Shown here one piece after another: positions 9,348 through 59,195 of a stretch of DNA of 64,000 bases. The position numbers and the translations under genes were made by a program. Positions within the stretch are counted from its first letter, which is position 1. Every line of letters begins with the position of its first letter. Source of the DNA: Larkinella rosea (GTDB lineage: Bacteria > Bacteroidota > Bacteroidia > Cytophagales > Spirosomataceae); assembly GCF_003858635.1 (NCBI RefSeq), contig NZ_RQJO01000010.1:434001-498000 (forward strand), read 5' to 3'. The notes beneath the pieces were generated by a model, which had not been told where the DNA came from, did no database searches, and worked only from the letters and a program-made list of their open reading frames with translations.

Positions 9348-9378
9348 GGTTACTTGAAGTTAATACGAAGAGTTAAGC

Positions 9379-9424
9379 AATGAGGGAATGAATGGCTCCT
9401 AAAAGTCCATTGCATCCCCTCATT
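9379..9424. repeat. Imperfect inverted repeat between GT4 and GH130 genes
   Basis: AATGAGGGAATGAATGG (9379-9395) is roughly complementary to CCATTGCATCCCCTCATT (9407-9424). It may be an intra-operon processing hairpin or a weak terminator; there is no T run directly after it on the minus strand. Confidence 0.4.
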
Positions 9425-9442
9425 ATTTATCCCTTCCAACGA

Positions 9443-31496: not shown

Positions 31497-33509
31497 TTAC
31501 GGCTGATCCGCATTTTTAGCGGCTCCTGTGTTTCCACCGGCCAGGGAATTGATCCAGGCGGCAATTTTCAGCGCGTCGGCTTTGGGAACCTGCGGCATCG
31601 GCGGCATTTCGGTCGAATAATCCGGCCAGTTTTGCGGTTTTGGATTGTAGATCAGTTCCAGAATTTTCTCGTTCGAATAACCTTTTTTCGCAACATCGAC
31701 AAAAGCCGGGCCGACCTGCCGCTTTTCAGCATTGTGACAAGCCGAACAGGTATGCCGGTTTAGCAACGGTTTTACCTCCTCGAACGTCGGCGCTTTGGCA
31801 ATCAGCACCCCGGTTTTTGTACCCGTTGCCGTTGTTTTTGCACCGGTTTTTACACCCGGTTTAGCCGAAACACCTTTCTTCGCCGGAGCGGTTTTCGACG
31901 CCGATGAGTTAAACGTACTGACCTCATTCATCGCCAGTTTCTGCCCTTCCGGAATGTTGTTCAGCGTGTAATAAGCCGTTGGATGGACCAGCGAATACGA
32001 ACCCTGGGCCGCCCGAACGCCGTCGAGTGTCAGGTTGTGAATGTAGAACTGACGCAGGTTATCGACAATCACGCGGGCTTTCAACCCGTCGGCCGATACT
32101 TTCACGCCTTTTATAACACCCGCTTCCTTGTTGACTGTCGGGCTGCCATAAACCGGGTGGTATTTGTAAATAAAACTTTCGACCGAATACGAAGCCAAAT
32201 CTTCGGCTGATTTCCGGTCGACAGGCGTCGTAAATTCCACCTCAAAACCGTCCGGCATGGCGCGAACCGCCCGCATTTCAAACGGCATTTGGTTGTTCCA
32301 GGTCAGGCGTTGCAGCCCTTCGTCGGCATCCCCCGCCGACCCCCAGCCCCGGTTGGTTTCGCCGACAAACAGCGAGCCGTCTTTGGCCCACGCCATCCGC
32401 AAAACGCCCGAGCGAAAACCGCTGCGGAAATCGATCGAAGCACCCTGGTATTCGCCTTTCACTTTCTCCATGAAAACCCGGGTAATTTTGCTTTGTCCCT
32501 GATCGCCCACCAGCAGTTGCCCGGCAAATGGCCCGAATGAACCTTCCGGAATCTGAACAATTTCCGAGTTGGAAATGCCCTGAACACCGTGCGGCAACCA
32601 AACCACCGGCAATTGGATTTCCGGAAACTCCTTTTTCATTTCGAACAAGGTGTAGTATTTTTCGTCGATCACGTTCTCCGGTTTGATGGCCCGGCCCCGT
32701 TCGTCGCGGTTATCGCGCGGGTTGATTTTGGCGTACAACTGCTCCTGCGTCAGTTTAACCGGTGATTTCGGATCGGCACTCCAGCGTAAACCGGCCGGGT
32801 GCCCCATGAAAGCGCCTTTTTTGACGTGCCAAACGCCCCCGGAACCAATCCAGTCGCCCTGGTTATCGGCATAAAACAATTCGCCGTTGATCATCCCCAA
32901 CCCGGCTGGCGAGCGAACGCCCGTTGCCCAGGGCTCGATCTGACCGTCTTTCGTGATGTGCATGATCCAGCCCCGCCAGGGGACGCGACTTTCGCCCGCC
33001 CACCATTTTTCGTCGCCAAAGGCTACGTTACCCGAAATAAAATAGGAACCATCGGGCGCAATTTTAGGCCCAAACGTATACTCGTGGTAGTGTCCCGAAA
33101 CCGGAATATTGGTTACGGTTTCGATGATATCGGCTTTTCCGTCCTTGTTCGAATCCACCAGTTTGGTCAACTCGCCACGCTGGGCGCAATACAGCGCACC
33201 GTCTTTGTAGGCCAGCCCCAGCACTTCGTGTAACCCCGACGCAAATTTGCGAAAAAACGGACGACGGCTTGTCGGGTTTTCGACGATAAAAATATCTCCC
33301 CGGCGGGTTGCCACGCCCAGATCGCCGTTCGGCAGGACGGTCAAACCGCCCACTTCCAGCAAGGTACCTTCGGGTGCGGACACCTTCAGGATTTTGTAAA
33401 AATCTTCTTCCTTGGGCGACTCCTGCGCCCAACCCACCGAAAATGCAGCGGCTGACAACAAGGTACCGACCACCGCCCGGCGAAGAATGGATCTATTTAT
33501 TCGTTTCAT
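31497..33509 (-). CDS. Secreted beta-propeller protein with C-terminal cytochrome c domain
   Basis: A 670-residue protein. A signal peptide ends VGWAQ; a large propeller (about 45-430) resembles L-sorbosone/glucose dehydrogenase-type folds (GGLTVLPNGDLGVATRRGD, GVRSPAGLGMINGELFYADNQGDW). A linker rich in Ala/Lys/Thr (about 540-575) leads to a class I cytochrome c domain with CSACH heme site at 588-592 and axial Met candidates 635 or 638 in EMPPMP. It may pass electrons from a sugar or alcohol oxidation. It follows the DUF1080-PA14 gene with a 5-bp gap, so the two are co-transcribed and probably act together. No classical PQQ site was verified. Confidence 0.8.
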   Translation of the reverse strand: MKRINRSILRRAVVGTLLSAAAFSVGWAQESPKEEDFYKILKVSAPEGTLLEVGGLTVLPNGDLGVATRRGDIFIVENPTSRRPFFRKFASGLHEVLGLAYKDGALYCAQRGELTKLVDSNKDGKADIIETVTNIPVSGHYHEYTFGPKIAPDGSYFISGNVAFGDEKWWAGESRVPWRGWIMHITKDGQIEPWATGVRSPAGLGMINGELFYADNQGDWIGSGGVWHVKKGAFMGHPAGLRWSADPKSPVKLTQEQLYAKINPRDNRDERGRAIKPENVIDEKYYTLFEMKKEFPEIQLPVVWLPHGVQGISNSEIVQIPEGSFGPFAGQLLVGDQGQSKITRVFMEKVKGEYQGASIDFRSGFRSGVLRMAWAKDGSLFVGETNRGWGSAGDADEGLQRLTWNNQMPFEMRAVRAMPDGFEVEFTTPVDRKSAEDLASYSVESFIYKYHPVYGSPTVNKEAGVIKGVKVSADGLKARVIVDNLRQFYIHNLTLDGVRAAQGSYSLVHPTAYYTLNNIPEGQKLAMNEVSTFNSSASKTAPAKKGVSAKPGVKTGAKTTATGTKTGVLIAKAPTFEEVKPLLNRHTCSACHNAEKRQVGPAFVDVAKKGYSNEKILELIYNPKPQNWPDYSTEMPPMPQVPKADALKIAAWINSLAGGNTGAAKNADQP

Positions 33510-33514
33510 AATCG

Positions 33515-35386
33515 TTAAAACAAGATCGAGTAAACCAATTTTCCCTTCACCGGAACGATCAGTTCCTGCCGGTCACCTACTTTCCGCACGGCAGGGGTTG
33601 CACCGCCCGCGTCGTCGATGCGTACATAATAGGCCTTTCCATCCACGATGTACGTGCCGTTTTCCAAAGCCGCAATCGTACTGCCTTCCGCCAATCGGAC
33701 GAACAAGTCGCTCGCCGGGTTTTGAACGTTAATTTCACGCCGAACGCCCTGACCATTTTCCAGCACGCGGGTCGCATCCGTAACCGTGGCTCCGTAGGTC
33801 TGGTATTTGAACGTCGGACGATCACTTTCGTCGAGCACATACCCGCGCGGACGAAAACCGCTGCCGGTCGTATCAGTTGCCCAGGCCGCCGTTGGAGCCG
33901 ACAATTTGGCAAGTCCTAAAACCGGGGTACCCAGTCGTTGCACCATACCCATCGGACGCGACGAACCATCGCCCCGTTCGTGCCACATGGGTGTCGTATC
34001 TAAAAATTGTCCCCGCCAAACCTGCACCAGCGCACCGTTGTCCATGTCATAGGTGTAATGCACCTGCTCGGGGCTACCCACCGAAACCGCATGAACAACC
34101 CGTAAGGTCCGGCCCTGCGCATTTTTGTAACCGGGCATATCCATAAAACTCCGCAGAATGGTATTCGTCGATGCATCGACCAGAATCGGGTCGGTCGGAT
34201 CACCGTTCATGGCTCCGCTGGCGTCGCTAATGATGTATTCGCGAATACCGGGACCGGTTACGGCCAGACCGATCGACGGTTTGGCCCAGTCTTCCATTTT
34301 GGCGTACAACAGTTCAAACGGCACATCGCCCGCAGCCAGAGTGATGCTTCCGCGCTGACGACGGTCTCCCGGGGTAATGACGGTTTTGTTGTTGATTTTC
34401 ATCATGCCGCCACCGCCCGCAGCACCGAGATTAAAGGCATAATCACCGGCTTCTTTCACGCGAAGTGTACCTGTATAGCGGATCAGAAAGTCGTTCGGAA
34501 TGCGGGTTACGTTGGCCGTCAGAATCACCGACGAACCTTCGGCTTCCGGCGGCAGTTTGCTGAAATCCGGTTCTTTGTCAAATCGGCCTTTATAAACCGC
34601 GTACTTCAGGTTCATCAGTTCCGGGCGCGGTTTGTCGTAGTTTTTAATGATGATGTTCCGGATAGCAACCGGCCCGTGATCGCCCTGAATCCGGAGCGGG
34701 CCACTGGCCACTTCGTCTTTGCCCAACGCACCCCGGGTGGGTCCCGCCAGTTCGACGTTTTCGTGAATCGCTACGCCGTTCAGTTCAACGAGCAACATCC
34801 GGGCATTTTCGATTTTCTTGCCGCTGGCATCGAAACGTGGTGCCTGAAATGAAATCTTCAGGTGCTGCCACAAACCGGGTGCCCGGCTGGCATTCTGGCG
34901 GGGCGGATGGCCGTCGTAGCCTTTCTGGCCATCAGGGCGGCTGTCGTCCCAACGTTCGTAAATCCCCCCATTATCGCCCGCTTTGGGATTTTTGGTTCCC
35001 CAGCTATCGAGCAATTGAATTTCGTAGCGACCCTGTAGATAGACCCCGGAATTTGATCCTTTTGCAATCAAAAAGTCCAGATCGAGATCGACGTCACCGT
35101 GCTGAAAGTTCGAAACCAGATCGATGTTCCCGTCTTTCGCGGGCAAATTGGCCAGAATTCCGGTTCCGGGTGTACTTTTCAGGACGTCTTTCTGGTTCAG
35201 ATCACCGGAAACGTCACCGACTATACGCCAGTTGTTACCCGGTTTTTGGAAAGCACTTAAATCGTTTAGTGGCAGAGCCGCGGGCTGGTCCGTTTTGGGC
35301 TGGGCACTGGCCAGTCCGGCGCTAAAGACCCACCCGACACCAAACACCAAACGGGCGAACGTCGTGTTCATAGAGGTTGACTTCAT
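33515..35386 (-). CDS. DUF1080 (3-keto-disaccharide hydrolase family) plus PA14-like domain protein
   Basis: A 623-residue secreted protein (signal peptide about 1-28). Residues 38-252 are a DUF1080 jelly roll: NSGVYLQGRYEIQLLDSWG (112-130) and the family ending GDHGPVAIRNIIIK (236-249). Residues about 295-380 look like a PA14-type carbohydrate-binding module (FLIRYTGTLRV, GDYAFNL, LLYAKM, SIGLAVTGPG). The last 240 residues form a beta-rich domain I cannot name (MWHERGDGSSRPMG is distinctive). DUF1080 members are known to act on 3-keto-glycosides. It is the first gene of a pair with the cytochrome c propeller protein. The alternative ATG at 35371 would give a slightly shorter leader. Confidence 0.82.
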   Translation of the reverse strand: MKSTSMNTTFARLVFGVGWVFSAGLASAQPKTDQPAALPLNDLSAFQKPGNNWRIVGDVSGDLNQKDVLKSTPGTGILANLPAKDGNIDLVSNFQHGDVDLDLDFLIAKGSNSGVYLQGRYEIQLLDSWGTKNPKAGDNGGIYERWDDSRPDGQKGYDGHPPRQNASRAPGLWQHLKISFQAPRFDASGKKIENARMLLVELNGVAIHENVELAGPTRGALGKDEVASGPLRIQGDHGPVAIRNIIIKNYDKPRPELMNLKYAVYKGRFDKEPDFSKLPPEAEGSSVILTANVTRIPNDFLIRYTGTLRVKEAGDYAFNLGAAGGGGMMKINNKTVITPGDRRQRGSITLAAGDVPFELLYAKMEDWAKPSIGLAVTGPGIREYIISDASGAMNGDPTDPILVDASTNTILRSFMDMPGYKNAQGRTLRVVHAVSVGSPEQVHYTYDMDNGALVQVWRGQFLDTTPMWHERGDGSSRPMGMVQRLGTPVLGLAKLSAPTAAWATDTTGSGFRPRGYVLDESDRPTFKYQTYGATVTDATRVLENGQGVRREINVQNPASDLFVRLAEGSTIAALENGTYIVDGKAYYVRIDDAGGATPAVRKVGDRQELIVPVKGKLVYSILF

Positions 35387-35594
35387 TGGATTTTAGTTGA
35401 AGTCGGGAAGTTACCTCTTTTTTAAAAATTTTTATGAAATTGATTGCAGTTCTCCCGTTCAACTGTACTATTTCTACACCCGATTTTATAATTCCAAGAC
35501 AACACGGCGCGCAAAAAGCAATCGCTATGTTCCGGAATGGATTAAAAAAACGAAGTCTGCCCAGGTAGTGCGACCATGGCGTTGACATTTCGCC

Positions 35595-35602
35595 TATATT
35601 TG
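35595..35602 (+). promoter_or_regulatory. Candidate -7 element for the DUF1080 gene
   Basis: TATATTTG matches TAnnTTTG exactly, 49 nt before the ATG at 35652. The -33 element at the expected distance is weak. Confidence 0.35.
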
Positions 35603-35651
35603 AAGACGGTTTTTCGTGCAAATCATTGTTTACCCAATCCTATTCTGACAA

Positions 35652-36443
35652 ATGAAAAAAAGTACTTTAGCCCTTGCCCTCGTTTTAGGTCTGGCTCAAC
35701 TGGCGATTGCCCAGGATAAGCCAAAGCAAAATCCGGAATCATCCGAAATCTGGGAGCCCGTTCCGCGGGTGGTTACACCGGGCGAGTTGTCGCCCGGTAC
35801 GGCATCCGGCACCACAGCCCCGTCCGACGCCATCGTTCTGTTTGACGGTAAAGACGGCAGCAAGTGGGTATCGGTGAAAGGCTACAGCCCGGACGCCTGG
35901 GGTGGTGTAACGGAAGGATCGAACCCCTGGCCGGTTCGCGACGGCGCCATGTTTTCGGCCAAAGGAGCGTCGCTGCGCACCAAGCAGGAATTTCAGGATT
36001 TTCAGCTTCACATCGAGTTCCGGACGCCGGACAAAGTAGAGGGCAACGGGCAGGGTCGCGGGAACAGCGGTATTTTCCTCCAGGGCCGCTACGAGTTGCA
36101 GGTGCTCGACGGCTACAACAACCCAACGTATTCGAACGGAATGGTGGGTTCAATCTACAAACAGGCGATTCCGCTGGTCAATCCAAGCCGGAAACCGGGC
36201 GAATGGCAGACCTACGACATCATCTATTACGCACCGAAATTCAATAAGGACGGAATGATGGCCGAGATGGGCAAAGTGACGGTTTTGCTGAACGGCGTAC
36301 TGGTTCTGAATAACTTCAACATCAAAGGAACGACGGAATACATCGGTTATCCGAAAGTTCAGGCCCACGGCAAAGGCCCGCTGCTGCTGCAGGATCACGG
36401 CAATCCGGTGGGCTACCGGAATATCTGGATTCGGGAGTTGTAA
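35652..36443 (+). CDS. Secreted DUF1080 (3-keto-disaccharide hydrolase family) protein
   Basis: A 263-residue protein: signal peptide (1-20, ending AIA), a short linker and one DUF1080 domain (about 55-262). Typical features are DAIVLFDGKDGSKWVS, the NSGIFLQGRYELQVLD core (about 138-153), GEWQTYDIIYYAPKF and the ending LLLQDHGNPVGYRNIWIREL. Proteins of this family work on 3-keto-glycosides made by sugar oxidoreductases. It is transcribed divergently from the DUF1080-PA14 gene, suggesting common regulation. It is followed by a 27-bp perfect inverted repeat. Confidence 0.9.
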   Translation: MKKSTLALALVLGLAQLAIAQDKPKQNPESSEIWEPVPRVVTPGELSPGTASGTTAPSDAIVLFDGKDGSKWVSVKGYSPDAWGGVTEGSNPWPVRDGAMFSAKGASLRTKQEFQDFQLHIEFRTPDKVEGNGQGRGNSGIFLQGRYELQVLDGYNNPTYSNGMVGSIYKQAIPLVNPSRKPGEWQTYDIIYYAPKFNKDGMMAEMGKVTVLLNGVLVLNNFNIKGTTEYIGYPKVQAHGKGPLLLQDHGNPVGYRNIWIREL

Positions 36444-36560: not shown

Positions 36561-36621
36561 CTTTTTCATTGCCGCATCCTCAAAACCCTTGTTTATATTG
36601 CGTCTAAATAACCAATATTCC

Positions 36622-37491
36622 ATGAAATACCTGCTTTTGCTAGTACTCGGATGCTTTGCGTTCACCAGTGATAAACCGGCTTACCGGTTTTATTCCCAGA
36701 AATTAAAAACCGTTCAGTATCAGAAAGTTCTGAAAGAAGCCGCCGAGGCCGATGTCGTCTTTTTTGGCGAACTGCACAACAATCCGATTTGCCACTGGCT
36801 GGAGCTGCAATTGACGAAGGATTTGTATGAAGCGAAAAAAGAGCAGTTGATTCTAGGCGCCGAGATGTTTGAAGCCGACAACCAGACGGCTTTATCGGAT
36901 TACGTTTCCGGAAAAACCACGGACAAGGAATTTCCGAAACAGGCCCGGCTCTGGAACAACTACAAAACCGATTACCGTCCGCTGGTCGATTTCGCGCGGG
37001 AGCACAAACTTTCCATGATAGCCACCAACGTGCCCCGGCGGTATGCGAGTGCGGTTTCGCGGCAGGGATTTGCGTCGCTCGACACGGTTCCGGCGGCTCA
37101 GAAAGCCTGGATTGCGCCCCTGCCCATCACGGTCGATCTGACGCTGCCCGGTTACAAAGCCATGCTGGACATGATGCACGGCAGCGGTTCGAAACCCGAT
37201 CCGGAACAGGGTGCGAACTTTGCCCGCGCCCAGGCCATCAAAGATGCCACGATGGCGCATTTTATCCTCCAGAACCGCAAACCTGGCACGACCTTTCTGC
37301 ATTACAACGGTTCGTATCACTCCAATAATTTCGAAGGAATCAGCTGGTATCTGCGCCAGAAACAGCCGGATTTGAAGATTGTGACCATTGCCTCGGTTGA
37401 AGTGCCGGACGTGGAAAAACCGGATAAAGCCAATCAGAATCTGGCCCATTTTATTCTGCACATCCCGGCGGATATGACGAAGACGTATTGA
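36622..37491 (+). CDS. ChaN-like (DUF399) protein
   Basis: A 289-residue protein with a signal peptide (MKYLLLLVLGCFAFTS; the Cys may make it a lipoprotein). The domain matches ChaN/DUF399: VVFFGELHNNPICHW (His-rich first motif), LGAEMFEADNQ, and FLHYNGSYHSNN near the C-terminus. In Campylobacter ChaN binds heme and is tied to iron uptake; that role is only suggested here. I chose the ATG at 36622 for the clean signal peptide. Confidence 0.85.
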   Translation: MKYLLLLVLGCFAFTSDKPAYRFYSQKLKTVQYQKVLKEAAEADVVFFGELHNNPICHWLELQLTKDLYEAKKEQLILGAEMFEADNQTALSDYVSGKTTDKEFPKQARLWNNYKTDYRPLVDFAREHKLSMIATNVPRRYASAVSRQGFASLDTVPAAQKAWIAPLPITVDLTLPGYKAMLDMMHGSGSKPDPEQGANFARAQAIKDATMAHFILQNRKPGTTFLHYNGSYHSNNFEGISWYLRQKQPDLKIVTIASVEVPDVEKPDKANQNLAHFILHIPADMTKTY

Positions 37492-38203: not shown

Positions 38204-38806
38204 TTACCGCTCCGCCAGCAGCAGCATCAACCACAAAAAACTATAATCCCGCAGTTGCGCACGCAGTAATTTGAGGGCTTTTGACAGGTGGTATTCGACG
38301 GTTTTGTCGGTGAGGTCGAGTTTCTGCGAAATTTCCGGAATGGTCTGGCCTTCGAAACGGCTCAGGCGGAAAACTTCCTGCGTTTTGGGGGGCAGTTTCC
38401 GGAGTTCGGTTTCAATGGTACCGACCAGATCGCTGTAGGCCAGTTGGTCTTCGGTCGAGAAATCGGCCTGGGAGGTAAAAATCTGCTGGTATTCCTGAAA
38501 TTTTTCGTGAACGATCTGGCCCCTGATGTAATCGATCACTGAATATTTTAAGGCTCCGAACAAGTACTGATCGGTTCGGCGAACGGACAGCGATGCCCGC
38601 TTTTGCCAAAGTTGAACGAACAAATCCTGCACTAACTCCTCGGCAATTTCCTGCGATTTGGTCTTCTGAAAAGCAACCCGGTACAGCGGATACCAATACC
38701 GTTCGTAGAGTTCCGCCAGCGCCAGCCGGTTCCCGTCGGACAAGGCCCGCAGTACCCGTTCATCCTCCCAATCCTTCAGTGCAGAAAGCCGTACGTCTTC
38801 CGACAT
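38204..38806 (-). CDS. ECF RNA polymerase sigma factor
   Basis: A 200-residue extracytoplasmic-function sigma factor of the Bacteroidota FecI-like type. Sigma-2 (about 27-95) includes EIAEELVQDLFVQLWQKR; sigma-4 (about 130-185) includes LPPKTQEVFRLSRFEG and the helix-turn-helix TIPEISQKLDLTDKTVEYHL. It is divergent from a FecR anti-sigma gene that precedes a SusC with STN domain, so it probably activates that susCD locus when the transporter signals. Divergence rather than co-direction of sigma and FecR is a variation on the usual order. Confidence 0.93.
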   Translation of the reverse strand: MSEDVRLSALKDWEDERVLRALSDGNRLALAELYERYWYPLYRVAFQKTKSQEIAEELVQDLFVQLWQKRASLSVRRTDQYLFGALKYSVIDYIRGQIVHEKFQEYQQIFTSQADFSTEDQLAYSDLVGTIETELRKLPPKTQEVFRLSRFEGQTIPEISQKLDLTDKTVEYHLSKALKLLRAQLRDYSFLWLMLLLAER

Positions 38807-39033
38807 GATTCACCCGTTGTCGACTAAATAAACACCAAATTACAATTATTTTACAAAATAGTGCCACTGAATCGATACAGATAACCGGATTGACAATTTT
38901 ATGATTGAACAAAACGAATAATATTCTTCAAAAACCGACCAATTTATATGAATAATCTTATCTTTTATAAAACCATTTAGGGCAATCGGGGGACTTCTTC
39001 GACTTCCACACTGAAGGAACGGTTTATCGGCTC

Positions 39034-40101
39034 ATGCAAAAAGAAGAATTCGTCCGTCTACTGACCAAGTACAATCAAGGCCAATGCACTGACGCCGAAA
39101 TCCGGCTCATTGATCGTTGGTATGACCAATTGGGTGCCGACAGTGCATTCGCATTGAGCGACGAAGAGCGGCAGAGGCTCAAAAAAAGGCTTTGGCAGAA
39201 AATTGATTTACAAACTACCGAAGAAACCGAAACCACTGCGCAACCGGCTGAAAAACCGCTCCGTCGGCCCGTGTTCCGACAGTGGTTTACAGCTGCCGCT
39301 GTGGCGGTCCTGATCGGCTTTGGAACCCTGTTCTTCTACCAAAATCCGTCGAATCCTTTGGAAAGGGTTCTTGGAAAAACCGGATCGGAAACCGGATTTG
39401 AAGAGCGAACAAACACCACCAGTCAGGCTCAGCTCATTACACTCAACGACGGCAGTATCGTTCACCTGCAACCACAAAGTACGATTCGGTATGCCACTCA
39501 ACCACTTCCCCAAAAACGGGAAATCTGGCTTAACGGCAAGGCTTTTTTTCGGGTGCAGAAAGATGCCAGCCGCCCGTTTCTGGTCTACAGCAGCAATATT
39601 GTGACCCGGGTTCTGGGAACCAGTTTCTGGATCACCGCCAACACCAATGCCCCAACGGTGGAAGTGGCGGTACATACTGGCAAAGTAGCGGTTTTCAAGA
39701 AAGACCGGCAATCGATGGTAAAACCGGAAGAAGTTGAAGTGACGGATAAGACCGGCGTTGTGCTGACGCCGAATCAGAAAGTAACCTTTTTTATTGACGA
39801 AAACCGCGTGACCCGAGGTTTAATCGACCAACCCGAACCAATCCGGAATCCCGTCCGGCCCGAACCGGCGACTTTCGTGTTTGACGACAGCCCTTTGCCA
39901 GAAGTGCTGAAACAGCTCGAAAGCCAATACGGGATTGAGATGGAAATCGGGAACGAGGTGCTGACCGAATGCCGGTTTACGGGGAACATTACCAGACAAC
40001 CCCTCTACACCAAACTGGAACTGATTTGCCAGTCGATCAATGCCCGGTACGAAGTGCAGGGAACGCGTATTCTGATCAACGGAACCGGTTGTAACCCTTA
40101 A
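39034..40101 (+). CDS. FecR family anti-sigma factor
   Basis: A 355-residue inner-membrane regulator. The cytoplasmic part (1-80) would bind the sigma factor; one membrane helix follows (84-102); the FecR domain (about 130-225, with LNDGSIVHLQPQSTIRY and VLGTSFWITAN) and a C-terminal DUF4974 domain (about 287-352, with LPEVLKQLESQYGIEMEIGN) are periplasmic. These sense the STN domain of the partner SusC. It lies directly upstream of that SusC gene. Confidence 0.93.
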   Translation: MQKEEFVRLLTKYNQGQCTDAEIRLIDRWYDQLGADSAFALSDEERQRLKKRLWQKIDLQTTEETETTAQPAEKPLRRPVFRQWFTAAAVAVLIGFGTLFFYQNPSNPLERVLGKTGSETGFEERTNTTSQAQLITLNDGSIVHLQPQSTIRYATQPLPQKREIWLNGKAFFRVQKDASRPFLVYSSNIVTRVLGTSFWITANTNAPTVEVAVHTGKVAVFKKDRQSMVKPEEVEVTDKTGVVLTPNQKVTFFIDENRVTRGLIDQPEPIRNPVRPEPATFVFDDSPLPEVLKQLESQYGIEMEIGNEVLTECRFTGNITRQPLYTKLELICQSINARYEVQGTRILINGTGCNP

Positions 40102-40280
40102 CCAGACTTAAAACCCACAAACGCCTATGATTTAAGCAATTACTCAAGAAAAAGCCGAAAGTGCGGCTACACTTTCGGCCCGGAATGTACCCCCTGATGC
40201 GCATCATAACTCATCTGCCAGGATGAGCGGGGCTTGTTTTGTCAAATGCTTCCATTTTTTCCAACAAAACATACAAAAGT

Positions 40281-43200
40281 ATGAAATTTTGTCGAATGCT
40301 CGGTTTGACCCTTCTAACCGTCATGAAAATCTCGTTTTTCCCAATTTTTCTAAGCCTGGTGCTGGCCGGATCGTCGTTGGCGTACGACGGTAAGGCGCAG
40401 GATATGCTCCAGCGACCGATTTCGATCAAAGCGGATGAGGTAGCCCTGAAGCAAATCCTGACCCGCCTGGAACGAATCGCCAATGTCGATTTCGTGTATA
40501 GCCCGAACGCCATTCCCACGGCCCGGAAAGTGACGCTCAATGCCCAGAATCAGAAGCTGTCGTCGGTGCTGGAAACGCTGCTGAAACCGCTCGGCCTAAC
40601 CTATCAGGTGATCAGCGGGCAAATTGTGATCCAGTTGCCGCCCGCACCGCAATCGTCCGTCAATGAGTCGAATGCTTTCCTCGAAACCGCCCCCGATGCC
40701 GCCGACCGAACGATCACGGGACAGGTTACTGCCGAAAACGACGAAGGAATGCCGGGCGTCAGTGTGGTGATTAAAAATACGACACGAGGCACTTCGACGG
40801 ACATGGATGGCAAATTTCGGCTATCGATTCCCGATGATCCTTCCACAACGCTGGTCTTTTCTTTTGTAGGCTATGTAAATCAGGAAGTTACCATTGGCAA
40901 CCAAACCAATTTCAAGGTCCAGCTGCTCGCTGATCTGAAAACGCTGGAAGAAGTGGTTGTGGTTGGCTACGGAACCATGCAGAAAAAGGACCTGACCGGG
41001 GCCGTGGCTTCCATTCAGGGCGATGCCATTACGACGCGCAAAACCACCCAGATTTCGCAGGCGCTGCAGGGCGCCATGCCGGGCGTTACCGTCACCCGGG
41101 GTAACAGCGCACCGGGTGCCACCGGAACCATCCGGATTCGAGGTATCACGACCATTAATGATGCGGGGGCCAATCCACTTATTATTCTGGATGGTGTTCC
41201 CATTGACGACATCAATTCCATCAATCCCAACGATGTCGATAACATTTCGGTCCTGAAAGATGCCGCTTCGGCTTCCATCTACGGATCGCGGGCGGCTGCC
41301 GGTGTCATTCTGGTGACCACCAAACGCGCCAAAACCGGTCAGTTGAGTCTCGATTATACAGCAGAATACGGCCTGGAACGGGCCACGCGATTGCCGGATT
41401 ACGTGAACGCCAAACGGTACATGCAACTCACCAATGAGCTGCGCTGGAATGATAACGGCAACAACGCCAACCAGTACCCTACCTACGCCAAAGATCTGAT
41501 CGACAATTACGACAACCTGCACGCGCAGGACCCCGATCAGTACCCGAATACCGACTGGCGCAGTATGATGCTGAAAGATTTTGCGCCCCGGCGCAGCCAC
41601 ATGCTCAGCATTTCGGGTTCCGGCAAATCCCTGCGGTCGCGGGTTTCGCTGGGCTACGACAAAACCGATGCGCTCTACGAAGGCCGGAGCTACGAACGGA
41701 TTACGGCCCGCGTCAACAACGACCTCACCATCACCAAATTCCTGTCAGCCAGCGTTGATATTAATTTCCGGCGGGCCTTTTCGCCCCAACCCATCACCGA
41801 CGACCGGAATGGTTCGTTTCCTTTCTATAAAATGGGCATCATGCCCCCGGTGTATGCCGCCGAATTCTCGGATGGCCGCATTGGTTCGGGCAAAGACGGG
41901 GCCAACATCTACGCCAAACTGAAATACGGCGGTTTTAACAACGCCTGGTACAATCAGGTGGGCGGGAAAATCAGCATCGATTTCACACCGATCAAAGGAC
42001 TGAAAATCACCGGCGTACTCTCGCCGTTTTTCAATTTTGATAAGATCAAAGTATTTACGAAAAAGGTCCCGTATACCTTGTGGAACAGCCCCAACACCGT
42101 TGCCGGATACATTGAAGGGCAGTCGCAAACCAAACTGGAGGAAAGCCGCAACGACAGTTACCGGTACACGACGCAGGCCTTGGCCAACTACGACCGCTCA
42201 TTCGGCAGCCACCACCTGAATCTGCTGGGCGGTTATGAATATTTCTACGCGTTCAACGAATCGCTGGGGGCGTCGCGCGGGCAATACATTCTGAATTCCT
42301 ATCCGTACCTGAACCTCGGCCCGCTGGACTTTCGGGACAACAGCGGGAGCGCCAACGAAAACGCGTATCGCTCGTGGTTTGGGCGGGTGATGTACGGTTA
42401 CAAAGATAAGTACCTGCTCCAGGCCAACATTCGCTACGATGCCTCTTCGCGGTTTGCGTCGGCCTACCGCTGGGGTTCGTTTCCGTCGGTTTCGGCGGGT
42501 TGGGTCATTTCGGAGGAGCCGTTTATGAAATCGAGCGCATCGTGGCTGCCTTTTCTGAAACTCCGGGCGTCGTGGGGATCGCTGGGTAATGATCGGATCG
42601 GGAACAATTTTTATCCGTATCAGGCCATCCTGAGTTTTGAAAACAATGCCCTCTTTTACCAGGGCAACACGGCGGTTTCGGCCCAGTCGGCGGCCCAGTT
42701 CCAGTATGTGATCCGCGACATTTCCTGGGAAACGACCAGTTCAGTTAACGTTGGTCTGGACGTCAATTTCTTCCGCGAACGACTCCGGCTAACGGGTGAT
42801 TACTACAAAAAAACCACCCGGGACATTCTGCTGGAACTCGAAATTCCCGATTATGTGGGTTTCGACAATCCGTACCAGAATACCGGAAAAATGCACACGT
42901 CGGGTTGGGAAATGCAGGCTACCTGGAACGACAATCACGGCGATTTGCGGTACAGTGCCTCCTTAAACCTCTCCGATTTCAAATCCAGTATGGGGGACTT
43001 GGGCGGGACGGTTTTCACCGGTGACCAGATTATCCGGGAAGGCAGCCAGTTCAAGGAATGGTACGGTTACGTTTCCGAAGGAATTTACCAAACCGCCGAC
43101 GAAGTGGCCAACTCGCCCAAGCTGAACGCGAACGTAAAACCGGGCGACGTGCGGTATAAAGACATCAGCGGCCCCAACGGCGTGCCCGACGGCAAGATCT

Positions 43201-43724
43201 CACCCGAATACGACCGCGTTCTGCTGGGCGGTTCCCTGCCCCGGCTTTCGTTTGGGGGCAATTTCAATCTCGGCTACAAAAACTGGGATTTCGCGCTGGT
43301 CATTCAGGGCGTTGCCAAACAGAATTCCCGGCTGGGTGCGGACATCGTTCAGCCGCTGCGCGAAAACTTCGGAACCTTCCCGGCCATTCTGGATGGCAAT
43401 ACCTGGAGCACCTACAACACGCCCGAGCAGAATTTACAGGCGAAATACCCGCGCTACACAAACACGTCGGCCGGTAACAACTACGCCCTGTCCGATTTCT
43501 GGCTGATCAACGGCGGTTATTTCCGGCTGAAAAACATCAGCCTGGGCTACAACATTCCCAAACTGGTTGCCACGAAGCTGAGAATGCAGAATCTCCGCGT
43601 TTACGGCTCCGTTACGGATCTGCTGTCAATCAGCAAGTTTCCGAAAGGCTGGGACCCCGAAATGGGCGGTCTGGGTTACCCGATTACTACCTCATTTGTC
43701 CTCGGCGCTTCTGTTAAATTCTAA
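40281..43724 (+). CDS. susC: SusC/RagA TonB-linked transporter with STN domain
   Basis: An 1147-residue outer membrane transporter. After the signal peptide (about 1-35) comes an STN (secretin/TonB N-terminal) domain (about 46-117), which touches FecR in trans-envelope signalling. A carboxypeptidase-regulatory-like domain (about 135-215), the SusC signature with VVVGYGTMQKKDLTGAV, a plug (about 245-350) and a large barrel follow. The STN domain, the FecR gene upstream and the sigma factor together make a substrate-induced circuit. The ATG at 40281 gives the best signal peptide; an upstream in-frame start adds 14 residues. It forms an operon with susD (11-bp gap). Confidence 0.94.
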   Translation: MKFCRMLGLTLLTVMKISFFPIFLSLVLAGSSLAYDGKAQDMLQRPISIKADEVALKQILTRLERIANVDFVYSPNAIPTARKVTLNAQNQKLSSVLETLLKPLGLTYQVISGQIVIQLPPAPQSSVNESNAFLETAPDAADRTITGQVTAENDEGMPGVSVVIKNTTRGTSTDMDGKFRLSIPDDPSTTLVFSFVGYVNQEVTIGNQTNFKVQLLADLKTLEEVVVVGYGTMQKKDLTGAVASIQGDAITTRKTTQISQALQGAMPGVTVTRGNSAPGATGTIRIRGITTINDAGANPLIILDGVPIDDINSINPNDVDNISVLKDAASASIYGSRAAAGVILVTTKRAKTGQLSLDYTAEYGLERATRLPDYVNAKRYMQLTNELRWNDNGNNANQYPTYAKDLIDNYDNLHAQDPDQYPNTDWRSMMLKDFAPRRSHMLSISGSGKSLRSRVSLGYDKTDALYEGRSYERITARVNNDLTITKFLSASVDINFRRAFSPQPITDDRNGSFPFYKMGIMPPVYAAEFSDGRIGSGKDGANIYAKLKYGGFNNAWYNQVGGKISIDFTPIKGLKITGVLSPFFNFDKIKVFTKKVPYTLWNSPNTVAGYIEGQSQTKLEESRNDSYRYTTQALANYDRSFGSHHLNLLGGYEYFYAFNESLGASRGQYILNSYPYLNLGPLDFRDNSGSANENAYRSWFGRVMYGYKDKYLLQANIRYDASSRFASAYRWGSFPSVSAGWVISEEPFMKSSASWLPFLKLRASWGSLGNDRIGNNFYPYQAILSFENNALFYQGNTAVSAQSAAQFQYVIRDISWETTSSVNVGLDVNFFRERLRLTGDYYKKTTRDILLELEIPDYVGFDNPYQNTGKMHTSGWEMQATWNDNHGDLRYSASLNLSDFKSSMGDLGGTVFTGDQIIREGSQFKEWYGYVSEGIYQTADEVANSPKLNANVKPGDVRYKDISGPNGVPDGKISPEYDRVLLGGSLPRLSFGGNFNLGYKNWDFALVIQGVAKQNSRLGADIVQPLRENFGTFPAILDGNTWSTYNTPEQNLQAKYPRYTNTSAGNNYALSDFWLINGGYFRLKNISLGYNIPKLVATKLRMQNLRVYGSVTDLLSISKFPKGWDPEMGGLGYPITTSFVLGASVKF

Positions 43725-43735
43725 CTCGATTTTCC

Positions 43736-45421
43736 ATGAAACTGAAAATAGCTATCTTCCTTTCCGGCCTGTTTTTCATGACGGCCTGCGGCAGTCTGGA
43801 CCTCAATCCATTGTCCGACGGCTCGGGCGAAACCTGGAACTCGAACGCCGAAGAAATCGAAATGTCGCTGAACGGTTTGTATAAAGACGCGTTCTGGATG
43901 CAGGATCTGGACGAATGGACCGACGACTGGACGTACCGCGACGCCACTACACCCATCACGGGAGCCACCATCAACGGTGAAACCGACTTTGTCATCACCT
44001 GGTGGACAAATACTTACAAGGCCATCGCCCGCGCCAACAACGTGATTCAGAGCGTCGACCGGGCGGGAGCGGTTTTATCCAAGGATCAAATCGACCGGTA
44101 TGCCGCCGAAGCGCGGTTTATCCGGGCCTGCCAGTATTCCCGTTTGCTTTCTCACTTCGGCAACATTGTGTACACCGAAACCGCCCTGACCATCGAAGAA
44201 GCACTAACCTTGAAACAGACGCCGAAAGAGACGGTTTTGCAAAAAATCTACGCAGATTTTGATTTTGCGGCATCCAAACTGAAAACCACTTACAGCAGCT
44301 CGGAATTGAAGCGGGTGACGGCCGGAGCCGCTTACGCCATGAAAGCCCGGATTGCGTTGCAAATGAGCGACTGGAAAACCGCCCGCGACGCGGCCAAAGC
44401 CTGCATGGACCTGAAAGCATACAGTCTGCACACCGATTTCGGCAACCTGTTTTTGTCGAAAACCAAAAACTCGGTGGAAACGATTTTTGCCCTTCCCCGT
44501 TCCGTGGCCCTGAAAGTGACGCTGGGCGGACTGCAGGATTACGTTCCCCGAAATGCGGGCGGCTACGCGGCTAAAGATCCTTCCTGGGATTTGTTCTGTG
44601 CGTTTCTGTGCAAAGATGGTCTGCCGATTGATGAATCCCCCCTGTTCAACCCGCGCGAACCGTTCAAAAACCGCGATCCGCGTTGTACGGCCACCATCGT
44701 CGAATTCCAGACATCGCACGTCGGATTCATTTTCCAGCCGCATCCGGATTCGGTTCAGGTACTCAGAACCAGCAACAATACGCGGGTCAACAACAACGAC
44801 ACCCGATCCGTTGCCCAGTTTGCCTCGTTCAACGGACTGATCTGGAAAAAGGGCGTCGACGCCGACTGGCTGCTGAATTCCTGGACCGCCGAACCCGACA
44901 AAATCCTGATACGCTACGCCGACGTGCTGCTGATGTATGCTGAAGCGAAAATCGAGCTCAACGAAATCGACCAATCGGTGCTGGATGCCATCAATACGGT
45001 TCGGGCGCGGGCCTATGGCGTGGCGGTATCGGCCACCACCTATCCGACTGTAAAAACCGGATCACAGGCGGTTTTACGCAAAACATTGCGCACCGAACGG
45101 CGGATGGAATTCGCGCTGGAAGGCATTCGTTACATGGACATTATCCGCTGGAAACTCGCTGAAAAAGTGCTGAACAAACTCAATTTCGGCCTGCTCGATC
45201 CAGCCGACCTGCGCACCAAAGTAGTGAAAACCGGTTTGTGGTTTTTCCCGCAGAAACCGGAAATCGACGACGACGGCGTGGCGGATTTTACGCCCATGTT
45301 CACCGCCGGACTGATCAAACAATTAACGATCCGGAAATTCGACGCGACCCGGCAATACCTCTGGCCCATTCCTTCAAAAGAAGTATTGACGAGCGGTTTG
45401 GTCCAGAATCCCGGTTATTGA
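43736..45421 (+). CDS. susD: SusD/RagB family outer membrane lipoprotein
   Basis: A 561-residue SusD homologue. The lipobox FMTAC places the lipidated cysteine at Cys18. The following SLDLNPLSDGSGETWN, the TPR-like helical core, RYADVLLMYAEAKIELN and the terminal LVQNPGY are family features. It is translated 11 bp after the STN-type susC and should form its lid. The substrate is unknown, but the next gene encodes a large secreted protein that could act on it. Confidence 0.93.
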   Translation: MKLKIAIFLSGLFFMTACGSLDLNPLSDGSGETWNSNAEEIEMSLNGLYKDAFWMQDLDEWTDDWTYRDATTPITGATINGETDFVITWWTNTYKAIARANNVIQSVDRAGAVLSKDQIDRYAAEARFIRACQYSRLLSHFGNIVYTETALTIEEALTLKQTPKETVLQKIYADFDFAASKLKTTYSSSELKRVTAGAAYAMKARIALQMSDWKTARDAAKACMDLKAYSLHTDFGNLFLSKTKNSVETIFALPRSVALKVTLGGLQDYVPRNAGGYAAKDPSWDLFCAFLCKDGLPIDESPLFNPREPFKNRDPRCTATIVEFQTSHVGFIFQPHPDSVQVLRTSNNTRVNNNDTRSVAQFASFNGLIWKKGVDADWLLNSWTAEPDKILIRYADVLLMYAEAKIELNEIDQSVLDAINTVRARAYGVAVSATTYPTVKTGSQAVLRKTLRTERRMEFALEGIRYMDIIRWKLAEKVLNKLNFGLLDPADLRTKVVKTGLWFFPQKPEIDDDGVADFTPMFTAGLIKQLTIRKFDATRQYLWPIPSKEVLTSGLVQNPGY

Positions 45422-51782: not shown

Positions 51783-54700
51783 TTATTTTGACAGCTCCTT
51801 CACGCGAATATTCCGAAACCGCAACACCGAACCGTGGCCCAGAAATCCGATGTAGCCCGATTTGCGTAGTAAACCGGGGTGTTCTTTGTGATCCATCGTA
51901 CCGTTTTTGCTGGCTTCAGCAATGTCGCCATTCAAAATCTGAGTGCCATTCAGTACAACTTTTACCTGATTGCCTTTCACGGTTACTTCTTCGTAATTCC
52001 ATTCACCCAGCGGTTTCAGCGCCCCGCGTTTGGCCGGAATCACCCCGTAAACCGAACCGTGGTACTGATACGGCTCCAGTTTTTTGTAGATCTCGGCGTC
52101 GTTGTCCAGAATCTGCAATTCCATCCCCGCATAAGCCGCGTCGCCCGTCAGCGGGGCGCGGATTCCGAGTCCATTGTTTGCGCCGGGTGTTAATTGAAAC
52201 TCAAACCGGAACACGAAATCGCTGTACTCTTTCTGCGTATACAGATTGCCTTTGCCACCATTGTTGTACCAGACCATATCGCCATCTTCGGCGACATAAT
52301 CTTTGGTATTACCGGTCCATTTACTGAAATCCGTACCGTCAAAAAGCAACTCAAAGCCGTCTTTCTTTTCGGCCTCGGTCAAGGCATACGGTTTGGGCTG
52401 CGGCAATTCCTTGACGTAAATATTCCGGTACGCGACGTACGTGCCGTGCGCCTGTAATTCAAGCTGTTCCGACGGAAAAATGGGCAGGCTACGATCCCAG
52501 TAGTTTTCCAGAACCGTGTTGTCCGTTACCAGAACGCCGTTCAGATAAACTGTCACCCGCTCGCCTTTCATGATGATGCGGAACGTATTCCACTCGCCCA
52601 CCGGATTGTCGGCTTTTTTCAGCGGTTTGCTTTCGAATTTCTGGTTGTTATACAAGCCACCCGACCCCACCTGCGCGCCCACATTTGTGCGGGCCGGGTC
52701 CCAAATCTGCACCTGCGGAGTTCCTCTCAGGTAAACACCGGCATCGCCATCTTTGGTAATTTTCCAGTCGACCAGCATTTCAAAGTCCTTGTACTGTTTT
52801 TCCGTACAGATGTTGTCGCCGTGCCCGCCAAAAACCAGCAAACCGTCTTTCACCGACCAGCCACTGCGCATGATCTCATCCGCTTTTTGCTGTTTCAGCG
52901 CCAGTGAATCGGCACTCATTTTACTCCGTTTGATCGGATTGGCAACCAGTCCTTTCCAGCCCGTCAGGTCTTTTCCGTTGAACAACGCCACAAAACCGTC
53001 GCCCGGCGGCAGAGCCAGCAAGCGGTTTTGAATAGCCTGCCGCTGGGATTCGCTTTCGGGACCGTTCAGGAGTTTACCGGTTTTTTCCAGCAGCGTCCGC
53101 ACGGTTTTGCCCGTAAAATCCCGGTTTGGTGCAGCAACCGCCCAAACCGTAACCGCAGCCTGCTGCTGCAACGCCGGGTCGTCGAGGTATTGCCCCGCAA
53201 AAACGAGCGCTAAAAACGTCCGGCAGCGGCTCACGCCTTTTAGAATTTCAACTTTCTGTTGCGGAGTCCGGGCAACGTCCATCGCATCCCGAAGCAGCAA
53301 TAACCGCTGGTCGGCGGGAAACGACAAGCGATTGATCATGGCAATATACCCATTCAAAGCCGACTCCGCAGCTACACTATTTTGCCGCGCAATTGCCAGC
53401 AAAGCCGGAGCCGCATCGGGCGTCGTCCAGTCCGCCAAAGCCGCAACGGCCGCCGGTTGCACCATTCCGTCTCCTTTATCAAACGATTGCTGTACAATCT
53501 GTAAGGCTTTGGGTCCACCGACGCCCGCCAGCGTTCCCAAAAAACGCGCCTGAGCAGCGGTTGGCGCCTGCTGCATCGTTTCCACCAGCAAATCCGTCCG
53601 CTGACTGGAATCGCCCGCCGAAACCGTTGCGGCCACAATCGCCTGTTGCAGCGAACGAATGGCTTTGGGCTGCGTGGCGTTGGTCAGCAAAGTCACCAGT
53701 TGCGGCAGTTGTTCTTTTGTAACCAGCGATGGCAAAGCTGCAGCAGCCGCCAGACTAATGGCTGAATCCTTTTCCTGCGCCTGAGCCATGACCTGTTGCA
53801 CGCTCGACTCGGCAGCGCGCGCACCCAGAATCGACAATAAAGCCGCCCGGGCTTCGGCGGGCATACTGGTCAGGCTATGCGTCACCTGCGCCACTACCTG
53901 TGGGCCTTTAATGGTCAGAATGGCATCTTTGACCGCCGTAATATCTGCCGATGAACCGCGTTTCATCAGTTCCAGCAAAGCCGGTAAAGCGGTTTGCTGA
54001 CCCGTTTGAGCCACGGCGGAAATGGCCGCCAGTCGAACCGCCTGATCGGCACTTTTCAATCCCGTCCCCAAAGCTGATGTCAGAGCGGGATCGCCGGTAG
54101 CACCTAATTGCGTGATCAAATCCGCCTGAATCGCACCCGTATTTTTTTCGATCAATTTGGCCAGCTGTGCGTTAACCGCTTTATTCTTTAAACCCGTTGC
54201 CAGTTTCAAAGCCGCTACCCGGTATTGAGCCGATGGATCAGCAACCGCTGCCGTTAGCAGGGGCAGGCTTTTCTCTTTATTAAAATCAACCAGCAATCGT
54301 AACGCAGCCGTGCGGGTATGCACCTGTTTATCGCCCACGCTCTCCTGCAACAGTTTTCGGGCCAGCGCGTCGGCCTGTGGTTTTTTCCCCGAAACCGCCA
54401 ATTGATGGAGGTAATCCAGGTAACTGGCCGTGGCTTCCGTTACGTCATAGGTATAACCGCTCTCCTGCGCGGCTTTCGCCAAAACCGGTCCGGCGGCTGG
54501 GGCGGCCAGTCGGGCCAGCGCATACATGGCTACTTTGCTCACTTTTTTATCGCTCTCTCCCACCAACGGAATCAAGGCCGAAGCAGCCGGTTGATACCGA
54601 CTGTCGCCCAGGGCCTTCACCAATGAAAGCTGAGTGGTTCCCTGCGATTCTTTTAAGGCTTGTAAAACCGCTTTTTCCGCCGACGGCGTATTGATTTTCA

Positions 54701-55172
54701 CCAACGCCCGAACCGCCGGGGCACAAAGCCGCTCGTCGTTCAGGTAGGGTTTTAGGTAAACAACCGCATCATCTTTGCCAACAATCTGCAACTGACTGAT
54801 GACAAATGCTTTGCTTTCCGGATCGCTGAGTTTTTCCAGCGCCTGCCCATACGCCCGAACCGCCATCGCACGCTGCACTTCTTTGCCCGGTTTGGTCACG
54901 TAATAGGAAAAACCGCCCAGGGCATATTCGATGGATGTGTTGTCGCCTTTGCCGGGTGCCGCCAGCATCGACACCATTTCCTGAATACCGGTTGAACCCA
55001 GCGCAGCAATGGCTTCCATGTTGGTTATCAATTGTTTGCCATCGAACGCTGGCATCTGAGCCAGGTTATCGGCTACCCGGTTTTCCAACGGGTGTTGATC
55101 GGGTTTGGGTTGCGCCCAACCGGCGTTATGGAGCAGCATGACGCCCGCGAAGGCAAATAGGTGTAGTTTCAT
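51783..55172 (-). CDS. HEAT-repeat protein with two DUF1080 domains
   Basis: An 1129-residue secreted protein (signal peptide 1-20, ending GWA). Residues about 45-690 are helical HEAT-like repeats (many ALxxLVxxxxx repeats). Two DUF1080 domains follow: about 712-930 (ALFNGKDLTGWKGL, GDAGVYLRGTPQVQIWD, AYRNIYVKEL) and about 936-1129 (LLFDGTDFSKWTG, NGLGIRAP, GMELQIL, RFRNIRVKEL). Two catalytic-type domains on a scaffold is unusual. It lies 37 bp downstream of a Gfo/Idh/MocA gene on the same strand, so it probably works on sugars oxidised by that enzyme. Confidence 0.85.
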   Translation of the reverse strand: MKLHLFAFAGVMLLHNAGWAQPKPDQHPLENRVADNLAQMPAFDGKQLITNMEAIAALGSTGIQEMVSMLAAPGKGDNTSIEYALGGFSYYVTKPGKEVQRAMAVRAYGQALEKLSDPESKAFVISQLQIVGKDDAVVYLKPYLNDERLCAPAVRALVKINTPSAEKAVLQALKESQGTTQLSLVKALGDSRYQPAASALIPLVGESDKKVSKVAMYALARLAAPAAGPVLAKAAQESGYTYDVTEATASYLDYLHQLAVSGKKPQADALARKLLQESVGDKQVHTRTAALRLLVDFNKEKSLPLLTAAVADPSAQYRVAALKLATGLKNKAVNAQLAKLIEKNTGAIQADLITQLGATGDPALTSALGTGLKSADQAVRLAAISAVAQTGQQTALPALLELMKRGSSADITAVKDAILTIKGPQVVAQVTHSLTSMPAEARAALLSILGARAAESSVQQVMAQAQEKDSAISLAAAAALPSLVTKEQLPQLVTLLTNATQPKAIRSLQQAIVAATVSAGDSSQRTDLLVETMQQAPTAAQARFLGTLAGVGGPKALQIVQQSFDKGDGMVQPAAVAALADWTTPDAAPALLAIARQNSVAAESALNGYIAMINRLSFPADQRLLLLRDAMDVARTPQQKVEILKGVSRCRTFLALVFAGQYLDDPALQQQAAVTVWAVAAPNRDFTGKTVRTLLEKTGKLLNGPESESQRQAIQNRLLALPPGDGFVALFNGKDLTGWKGLVANPIKRSKMSADSLALKQQKADEIMRSGWSVKDGLLVFGGHGDNICTEKQYKDFEMLVDWKITKDGDAGVYLRGTPQVQIWDPARTNVGAQVGSGGLYNNQKFESKPLKKADNPVGEWNTFRIIMKGERVTVYLNGVLVTDNTVLENYWDRSLPIFPSEQLELQAHGTYVAYRNIYVKELPQPKPYALTEAEKKDGFELLFDGTDFSKWTGNTKDYVAEDGDMVWYNNGGKGNLYTQKEYSDFVFRFEFQLTPGANNGLGIRAPLTGDAAYAGMELQILDNDAEIYKKLEPYQYHGSVYGVIPAKRGALKPLGEWNYEEVTVKGNQVKVVLNGTQILNGDIAEASKNGTMDHKEHPGLLRKSGYIGFLGHGSVLRFRNIRVKELSK

Positions 55173-55209
55173 ATCGGGAATAAGAAAGTAAAGAAATAGC
55201 GGATAGGCA

Positions 55210-56481: not shown

Positions 56482-56732
56482 ACTTGTTCGGTTAAGCGGT
56501 TTAGTTACCTCGTGATCTGGTATTCAACATGCGTTATTCACAATGGAACGACGTACCCGCTAAGGTTGAACAAGGGAGGTTGAATGCCAGATAAAGAGCC
56601 TTTACAATACTACTACTTTTCTAGCGAATAAGACCACCAATCACCAAATCACCCGATTTCGAACACTCTTTTTCCATACCTATTATAAAATCTCGTAAAT
56701 TACGTGCTCCCGTAAACTTTCTTTTTTATTGT

Positions 56733-58136: not shown

Positions 58137-58254
58137 GTTTTCGGTATACGGTTTTCCGTTTACGGTGGCTGACGCATGCTTGGGTAGTGCAAGAAATTAA
58201 CGCGGCAGCTAGAATGCGTCAGCTTCCGTAAACGGAAAACCGTATACCGAAAAC
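58137..58254. repeat. Palindromic intergenic repeat, family 1, copy C
   Basis: Two 41-bp arms (58137-58177 and 58214-58254) differ from perfect complementarity at only two bases; the spacer is 36 bp. Arms begin GTTTTCGGTATACGG and end GCTGACGCAT. Related copies are at 2521-2593 and 16060-16148. Confidence 0.9.
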
Positions 58255-58283
58255 GATAATTTATAACTCCTTACAACTAAACC

Positions 58284-58982: not shown

Positions 58983-59173
58983 AGACGCGATTCATCGCGT
59001 CTGATTTACGATCATCCAGATTCGGAAAGTAAATATGGAGACGCGATAAATCGCACCTGATTCAAGACCACCAGATTCGGAAATTGATTAGACAGAGACG
59101 CGATGAATCGCATCTGATTCAAGACCATCAGATTCGGAAATTGATTAGACAGAGACGCGATTTATCGCGTCTC
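58982..59173. repeat. 57-bp tandem repeat array with palindromic heads
   Basis: Units start at 58982, 59038, 59095 and 59152 (periods 56, 57, 57); the last is partial. Each unit begins with GAGACGCGAT followed by a partial complement; the last (59152-59173) is a perfect palindrome GAGACGCGATTTATCGCGTCTC-like element without the rest. The array starts at the stop codon of the DUF1080 gene and ends 22 bp before the DUF3500 ATG. Confidence 0.85.
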
Positions 59174-59195
59174 TACCCCAAATTCCTAAAACCTT

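Follow-up and report, generated by a model that had tools for sequence, protein, structure and literature searches.

A propeller–cytochrome c protein and its DUF1080–PA14 partner in Larkinella rosea belong to a conserved gene pair with a possible role in respiratory sugar oxidation

In Caulobacter, the lactose 3-dehydrogenase LacABC and a periplasmic DUF1080 3-ketolactose hydrolase have a proposed job equivalent to the one considered here (PMC9007349). We analysed a window of 64,000 nucleotides from the 8.17-Mb genome of Larkinella rosea (contig NZ_RQJO01000010.1, positions 434,001 to 498,000, forward strand), to which all coordinates below refer unless a contig handle is given. According to the open reading frame (ORF) listing, it holds a propeller–cytochrome c protein (P1, 670 residues, 31497-33509, minus strand), a protein with DUF1080, PA14 and a proposed docking domain (P2, 623 residues, 33515-35386, minus strand) and a single-domain DUF1080 protein on the other strand (P3, 263 residues, 35652-36443, plus strand). 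LacABC is not known to have a propeller of the P1 kind. P1 and P2 are probably on one transcript, since only 5 bp (33510-33514) separate them, and 265 bp lie between the P2 start and the divergent P3 start. ORFs, Pfam, phmmer and, for the propeller, a structure model confirmed these three genes, their domains and the 5-bp gap as given in the first-pass annotation, which had proposed a respiratory 3-keto-sugar unit, that is, a cytochrome-linked dehydrogenase feeding DUF1080 enzymes. The comparisons below indicate that P1 and P2 quite likely form an electron-transferring complex, and the DUF1080 step appears as a less constant part of it.

Conservation of the pair and exchange of its electron carrier

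The pairing was followed in the best 80 of 376 named loci and in a sample of 395 Bacteroidota genomes, 33 of which had a match (at most 7 candidates were scored per genome). Results showed that the propeller gene lay directly downstream of the P2-type gene in 78/80 named loci, the other two being contig ends after P2, and that the gap measured 0-33 bp in 67/77 loci (start codons were picked mechanically). In the phylum sample, 50/51 partner genes had a propeller directly downstream on the same strand; the lone exception was in genome G246, which carries an unpaired propeller elsewhere. When ORFs with the docking domain were counted over overlapping loci, so that some genes entered more than once, 170/177 adjoined a propeller gene, and two of the other seven were at contig ends. 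The pairing is far beyond chance, and the expectation that it would recur in other genomes was borne out strongly within Bacteroidota. P3 is present as described, but genes like it are only loosely linked to the pair: a DUF1080 gene of this kind was found within 4.5 kb in 40/80 loci (30 divergent, 10 downstream), and in 35 of the 70 loci that had more than 1.2 kb of flanking DNA on each side.

The cytochrome c domain of P1 occupies residues 577-657 (31539-31781, minus strand), with CxxCH at residues 588-592 (31734-31748). It scored just under the PF00034 cut-off (20.1 vs 21.3 bits), and the P1 C-terminus matched solved cytochrome c by phmmer at E 2.7e-8. CxxCH, a later Met and the similarity to solved cytochromes c place it in class I. 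CxxCH was found near the end of 75/78 propellers of the named loci, and two of the remaining three were truncated at contig ends.

The carrier was of another kind in many related pairs. Two paralogous pairs of the same genome (C11:1023025-1026370 and C14:558297-561906) have no CxxCH after the propeller and carry a plastocyanin/azurin-type domain instead, and an azurin-type copper domain likewise replaces the cytochrome in pairs of other Bacteroidota. In a third own-genome pair (C10), the propeller is bare (519 residues) and its upstream neighbour, overlapping it by one base, combines a cupredoxin with the docking domain; on two Catenovulum plasmids, the neighbour of a bare propeller combines a cytochrome c with the docking domain. 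Both carrier types are therefore found in both places. Exactly one carrier was detected in each of 51 adjacent pairs (50 from the phylum sample and one, L215, with a weak partner match): a cytochrome on the propeller in 15, a cupredoxin on the propeller in 29 and a cupredoxin on the partner in 7. The ligands are intact in both classes, as judged by loose patterns: H..C-x4-H-x3-M was present in 45/45 copper domains, and CxxCH with a later Met in 104/105 cytochromes. When 82 propellers were placed in a tree, those with a cytochrome fell into two distinct groups, both well supported and set among the cupredoxin rows; P1 belongs to the larger one, and the starred branches forced two carrier changes. 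Because two unrelated carriers are exchanged at one site, electron transfer appears to be the point of the P1-P2 pair, and a redox function is hard to avoid on these sequences. The electron-transferring propeller of the first-pass annotation is thus supported by the swap of cytochrome and azurin-type copper domain, in the same place or on the partner.

Domains of P1 and P2

The C-terminal domain of P2, proposed here as a docking domain, covers residues 399-623 (33518-34192, minus strand), and its conserved core includes MWHERGDGSSRPMG (residues 467-480, 33947-33988, minus strand). It scored below the cut-off of DUF6797 (PF20601; 14.7 vs 24.9 bits). Of 25 P2 C-terminal domains, 17 matched DUF6797 weakly, the best at E 6.6e-4. 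Among the short partners, three gave weak matches (E 4.8e-5, 9.3e-4 and 0.031), and L215 gave none at E ≤ 0.1. A profile of the docking domain was run over the ORFs of the retrieved loci (1422, later 1657). Besides P2-type genes, it matched only genes directly upstream of bare propellers in the own genome and Catenovulum (E 5.6e-11, 7e-8 and 2.6e-7) and, in the phylum sample, additional short partners next to propellers. Two single-chain proteins scored E 0.13 and 0.81, with the unrelated ORF L102 between them (0.32), so that these rows alone prove nothing.

Profile–profile comparison by hhalign joined the groups in steps. The P2 C-terminal domain matched the short partners (probability 99.4, E 5.7e-22), and the short partners matched the N-termini of fused single-chain proteins (96.6, E 6.7e-10), which consist of a docking-type domain, a cytochrome c and a propeller, sometimes with PA14. 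Compared directly, the C-terminal domain and the fused proteins gave probability 89 (E 2.2e-6), or 41 with smaller alignments, and four unrelated control alignments gave 0.1 to 0.2. Among 198 genomes, 12/14 DUF6797 matches lay in one open frame with a propeller and 2/14 in the gene before one. The weak scores, the intermediates and the gene context suggest that the P2 domain is a distant relative of DUF6797. Since this relative is fused to propellers or stands beside them, and the docking-domain genes adjoin propellers as counted above, the earlier suggestion that the unnamed domain binds a partner is well supported, though not proved. Model confidence was lowered around MWHERGDGSSRPMG, where residues 469-471 had a predicted local distance difference test score (pLDDT) under 50; this is only suggestive of an interface loop.

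The 3-keto-disaccharide hydrolase domain of P2 (PF06439, i.e., DUF1080; residues 36-252, 34631-35281, minus strand) scored 80.2 bits and that of P3 149.9 bits, against a cut-off of 26.8. NSG and GRYE motifs are present in P2, and both patterns, the second of them narrow, matched 31/45 P2-type rows of the sample. Residues 31-251 of the P2 model resembled the 3-keto-glycoside eliminase/hydratase 9fbe (Z 19.1, 170 residues, 2.6 Å), as well as 8v31 (Z 17.7) and 8tda (Z 17.6), and P3 matched 4qhz at E 7.8e-80. The PA14 domain of P2 (residues 258-390, 34217-34615, minus strand) was over its cut-off at 33.7 bits; PA14 was not detected in 26/80 named relatives. By Pfam, no GMC or LacC-type subunit was found in P1-P3. 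The own genome has 33 PF06439 matches, 32 of them over the cut-off, and several related pairs lie in glycan surroundings: an own-genome paralogue pair sits with SusCD, two sulfatases, an esterase, a fucosidase-family protein and a DUF1080 gene, another related pair is beside GH9, and a Rufibacter pair occurs with GH65, GH28 and DUF1080.

An AlphaFold2 model of P1, built from 50 aligned sequences, had a mean pLDDT of 82. Its propeller (residues 34-412, 32274-33410, minus strand) has the sugar-dehydrogenase fold: the best match of the model was the soluble quinoprotein glucose dehydrogenase 1qbi (Z 28.9, 326 residues, root-mean-square deviation 3.2, 15% identity), with aldose dehydrogenases dependent on pyrroloquinoline quinone (PQQ) and AA12 enzymes close behind (Z 27.7-28.9 for 1qbi, 3das, 3a9g, 6h7t and 6jt5). 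Behind the propeller lies a beta domain (residues 413-530, 31920-32273, minus strand), whose strands were mostly modelled with pLDDT over 90 and in which many positions were invariant among the 50 aligned relatives. A low-confidence linker (residues 531-576, 31782-31919, minus strand; pLDDT under 50 at 540-570) leads on to the cytochrome. The propeller profile matched GSDH proteins of related genomes (hhalign probability 98.2, E 3.9e-14). Q110, E113, D119, H142, E143, R199, N216, R344 and R371 were invariant or nearly so, being kept in at least 78/81 propellers with any carrier (the long-branched row L222 was left out of this count). The positions compared were those of the catalytic His and the PQQ-binding Arg residues of soluble glucose dehydrogenase. 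R199 and R371 aligned with conserved Arg of the GSDH proteins; the residue set opposite the GSDH His was H140, which is variable, whereas the near-invariant H142 lies two positions further along. Residues 119-127 of P1 read DSNKDGKAD, which resembles a DxNxDG calcium loop, with D119, D123 and D127 kept in at least 77/81 relatives.

Membership of P1 in TIGR02604 was rejected on score (19.9 vs a cut-off of 122.2 bits). When the propeller profile was searched against PDB sequences, a single repeat motif drew in designed propellers for the most part, and no sugar dehydrogenase was listed; this search was replaced by the hhalign comparison with GSDH proteins.

Proposed mechanism and competing explanations

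We consider it rather probable that P1 and P2 are the two subunits of an exported redox enzyme, which would act as a respiratory glycoside oxidase and carry its own DUF1080 domain; export was read by eye from N-terminal hydrophobic stretches. In this scheme, the P1 propeller, with its PQQ sugar-dehydrogenase fold, would oxidise a sugar or glycoside by means of scavenged PQQ or some other cofactor, and the flexibly tethered cytochrome c would take the electrons on to the periplasmic respiratory chain. P2 would dock on the propeller through its DUF6797-like domain and supply PA14 as a carbohydrate-binding domain, while its DUF1080 domain would most likely cleave the oxidised (3-keto) glycoside in place, and P3 might act on the released product. 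From the fold and the gene context, a sugar or glycoside is the probable substrate. That oxidation takes place at C3 and feeds DUF1080 is a tentative proposal, which we hold somewhat doubtful.

Several observations weigh against this account. In some pairs (L174, L178 and L193), DUF1080 was degenerate or unrecognised, and it was not detected in the seven short partners, of which L215 alone gave a faint PF06439 match by Pfam (E 0.019). A coupling between oxidation and 3-keto cleavage is therefore not a general feature. Because DUF1080 is lost from view in these pairs, and PA14 in the named relatives mentioned above, the constant core judged by sequence is the propeller, the docking domain and the carrier. 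The electron-transferring propeller, the pairing and the docking of the earlier 3-keto-sugar unit were thus supported, but its DUF1080 step fell outside the invariant core. On the side of the docking domain, Pfam DUF6797 was not seen at E ≤ 1 in the single-chain cytochrome-propellers L038, L039, L041 and L219, and the one true DUF6797 sequence compared directly (L222) gave an hhalign probability of 4, or 16 with the short partners; the link to DUF6797 runs through the Pfam scores of the other intermediates and the gene context. The pairing also has its exceptions, as five rows representing four genes lie apart from a propeller in G014, G015, G039 and G246, with a propeller elsewhere in each genome. 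One full-length named relative, L077 from Pontibacter harenae, has no cytochrome.

The cofactor is a further difficulty. At E ≤ 1, Pfam recognised none of its propeller families in P1, GSDH (PF07995) included, and the PQQ site was only partly alignable between P1 and the GSDH proteins. No pqqC over the cut-off was found in 59 relatives (one weak row) or in 395 phylum genomes, a search that had no true positive control, as all 14 control genomes were likewise negative; 27 distant pqqC relatives fell below the cut-off among the phylum genomes. The L. rosea genome has 21 GSDH (PF07995) matches, and how PQQ-type enzymes are supplied with cofactor here is a puzzle in its own right. PQQ can be taken up, and own synthesis is not strictly required. 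Since no pqqC was detected despite the 21 matches, PQQ uptake and a different cofactor both need to be taken into account, and PQQ itself is a possible cofactor of P1 that we would not presume.

Some of the exceptional loci deserve a description of their own. In C14:557338-563110 of the own genome (G000; L032, L174), a paralogous cupredoxin pair carries a DUF1080 domain without the NSG and GRYE motifs, possibly a pseudo-enzyme retained as a subunit. The L077 propeller (8700-10493 of that locus) stops in the linker, and no cytochrome was found in the three forward frames just downstream; this may be a loss or an assembly fault. The split pairs are G246 C2:9000-15000 (L213) and C26:500-7000 (L214), G014 (L030), G015 (L048, L047) and G039 (L042, L043).

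Other explanations of the pair were weighed against the same evidence. The pair might oxidise a non-sugar or a position other than C3, such as an aldehyde, a polyol or the anomeric carbon (to a lactone), with DUF1080 and PA14 serving only to bind polysaccharide. Where the chemistry of PQQ propeller enzymes with this fold is known, they oxidise the anomeric carbon, and the dispensable or degenerate DUF1080 of some pairs also favours this explanation; with the P2 motifs intact, the domain above its Pfam cut-off and both patterns retained in most P2-type rows, we regard this explanation as unlikely, albeit the strongest competitor. It is also rather improbable, in our judgement, that the DUF1080 enzymes here are served by LacABC-type flavoproteins or NAD (nicotinamide adenine dinucleotide)-linked GFO/IDH/MocA enzymes encoded elsewhere and that the job of P1 is unrelated. 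Seven PF13618 (LacC-type) proteins are encoded in the genome, none of them within the window, and two GFO/IDH/MocA genes stand beside DUF1080s in the window itself; both kinds of enzyme could supply 3-keto sugars. The combination of LacABC and DUF1080 is genetically supported in Caulobacter (PMC9007349), and P2 is apart from the propeller in the four genomes with split pairs. Against this, nearly all loci of both sets (50/51 and 78/80) have the propeller next to P2 and its DUF1080, and relatives of the window's GFO/IDH/MocA genes were labelled in only 2/80 loci (L085 and L099, flanks ≤ 8 kb).

A glycosidase function of the propeller, with a regulatory role for the cytochrome, is very improbable. 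For Lac161_ORF7, a TIGR02604-HEAT-cytochrome c protein of Verrucomicrobial origin, release of glucose from lactose was reported, but the glucose was read out with glucose oxidase and peroxidase, and the protein assayed has a haem motif (PMC5342196). P1 reaches TIGR02604 only with the sub-threshold score given above, and a glycosidase would have no need of two unrelated electron carriers that replace each other at one place. The respiratory glycoside oxidase described at the start of this section is the explanation that we prefer.

Neighbouring genes and comparison with known systems

Next to P3 lies a gene for a ChaN-type haem-binding protein (36589-37491), which also occurs near the unit in L046, L049, L071 and L075, among others; that it might help to provide haem for the cytochrome is no more than speculation. 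An ECF (extracytoplasmic function) sigma factor, FecR-like and SusC-like proteins (both named by eye) and SusD follow at 38204-45421, next door, as a regulated nutrient-uptake locus. Further along, 51783-60227 encodes a HEAT-repeat protein with two DUF1080 domains (1129 residues), the two GFO/IDH/MocA oxidoreductases, a single DUF1080 protein and then a DUF3500 gene. This looks like an NAD-linked 3-keto-sugar cluster separate from P1-P2.

In a literature search with most subscription journals outside its coverage, no paper joining DUF1080 and a c-type cytochrome was found; DUF6797, PF20601, DUF7133 and PF23500 were not met, and only TIGR02604 was. The P1-P2 pair looks like an undescribed route of glycan breakdown for soil bacteria. 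If the preferred explanation is true, the 3-keto-sugar route would have a further entry, through a respiration-coupled propeller, alongside LacABC flavoproteins and NAD-linked enzymes. It would also hint at what DUF6797 does and provide a testable partner for some DUF1080 domains of soil Bacteroidota. The carrier swap offers a clean handle, as the same kind of head should reduce haem or copper. More speculatively, and with more doubt than we attach to the C3 step, the pairs could make up an undescribed Bacteroidota family of two-component respiratory glycan oxidases, with a Gammaproteobacteria variant. Such a family would share a constant core of propeller and DUF6797-like domain, to which a haem or a copper carrier is added interchangeably, and its DUF1080 branch would couple C3 oxidation to cleavage in one complex without NAD or flavin.

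Compared with LacABC, the likeness is in the proposed periplasmic oxidation of a sugar whose product is passed to DUF1080 (PMC9007349); here, by contrast, the role of dehydrogenase is proposed for a propeller that brings its own carrier, and DUF1080 lies within the proposed partner subunit. P1 shares its propeller fold with the PQQ glucose and aldose dehydrogenases (1qbi, 3das, 3a9g) and with AA12, including the Coprinopsis pyranose dehydrogenase (6h7t, 6jt5), but it differs from these enzymes in its missing PF07995 match, its own set of invariant residues, the lack of a detected pqqC, its docking partner and its swappable cytochrome or cupredoxin. With TIGR02604, the PVC-type haem-binding CxxCH proteins such as Lac161_ORF7 (PMC5342196), it has in common a weak profile match, a cytochrome c and a link to carbohydrate, while remaining far under the family cut-off. 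In the same-frame DUF6797 (PF20601) proteins, too, a propeller of this kind is accompanied by a related docking-type domain, and they differ from P1-P2 in being one chain, in having no DUF1080 in the one scanned (L222) and in their far-diverged sequence.

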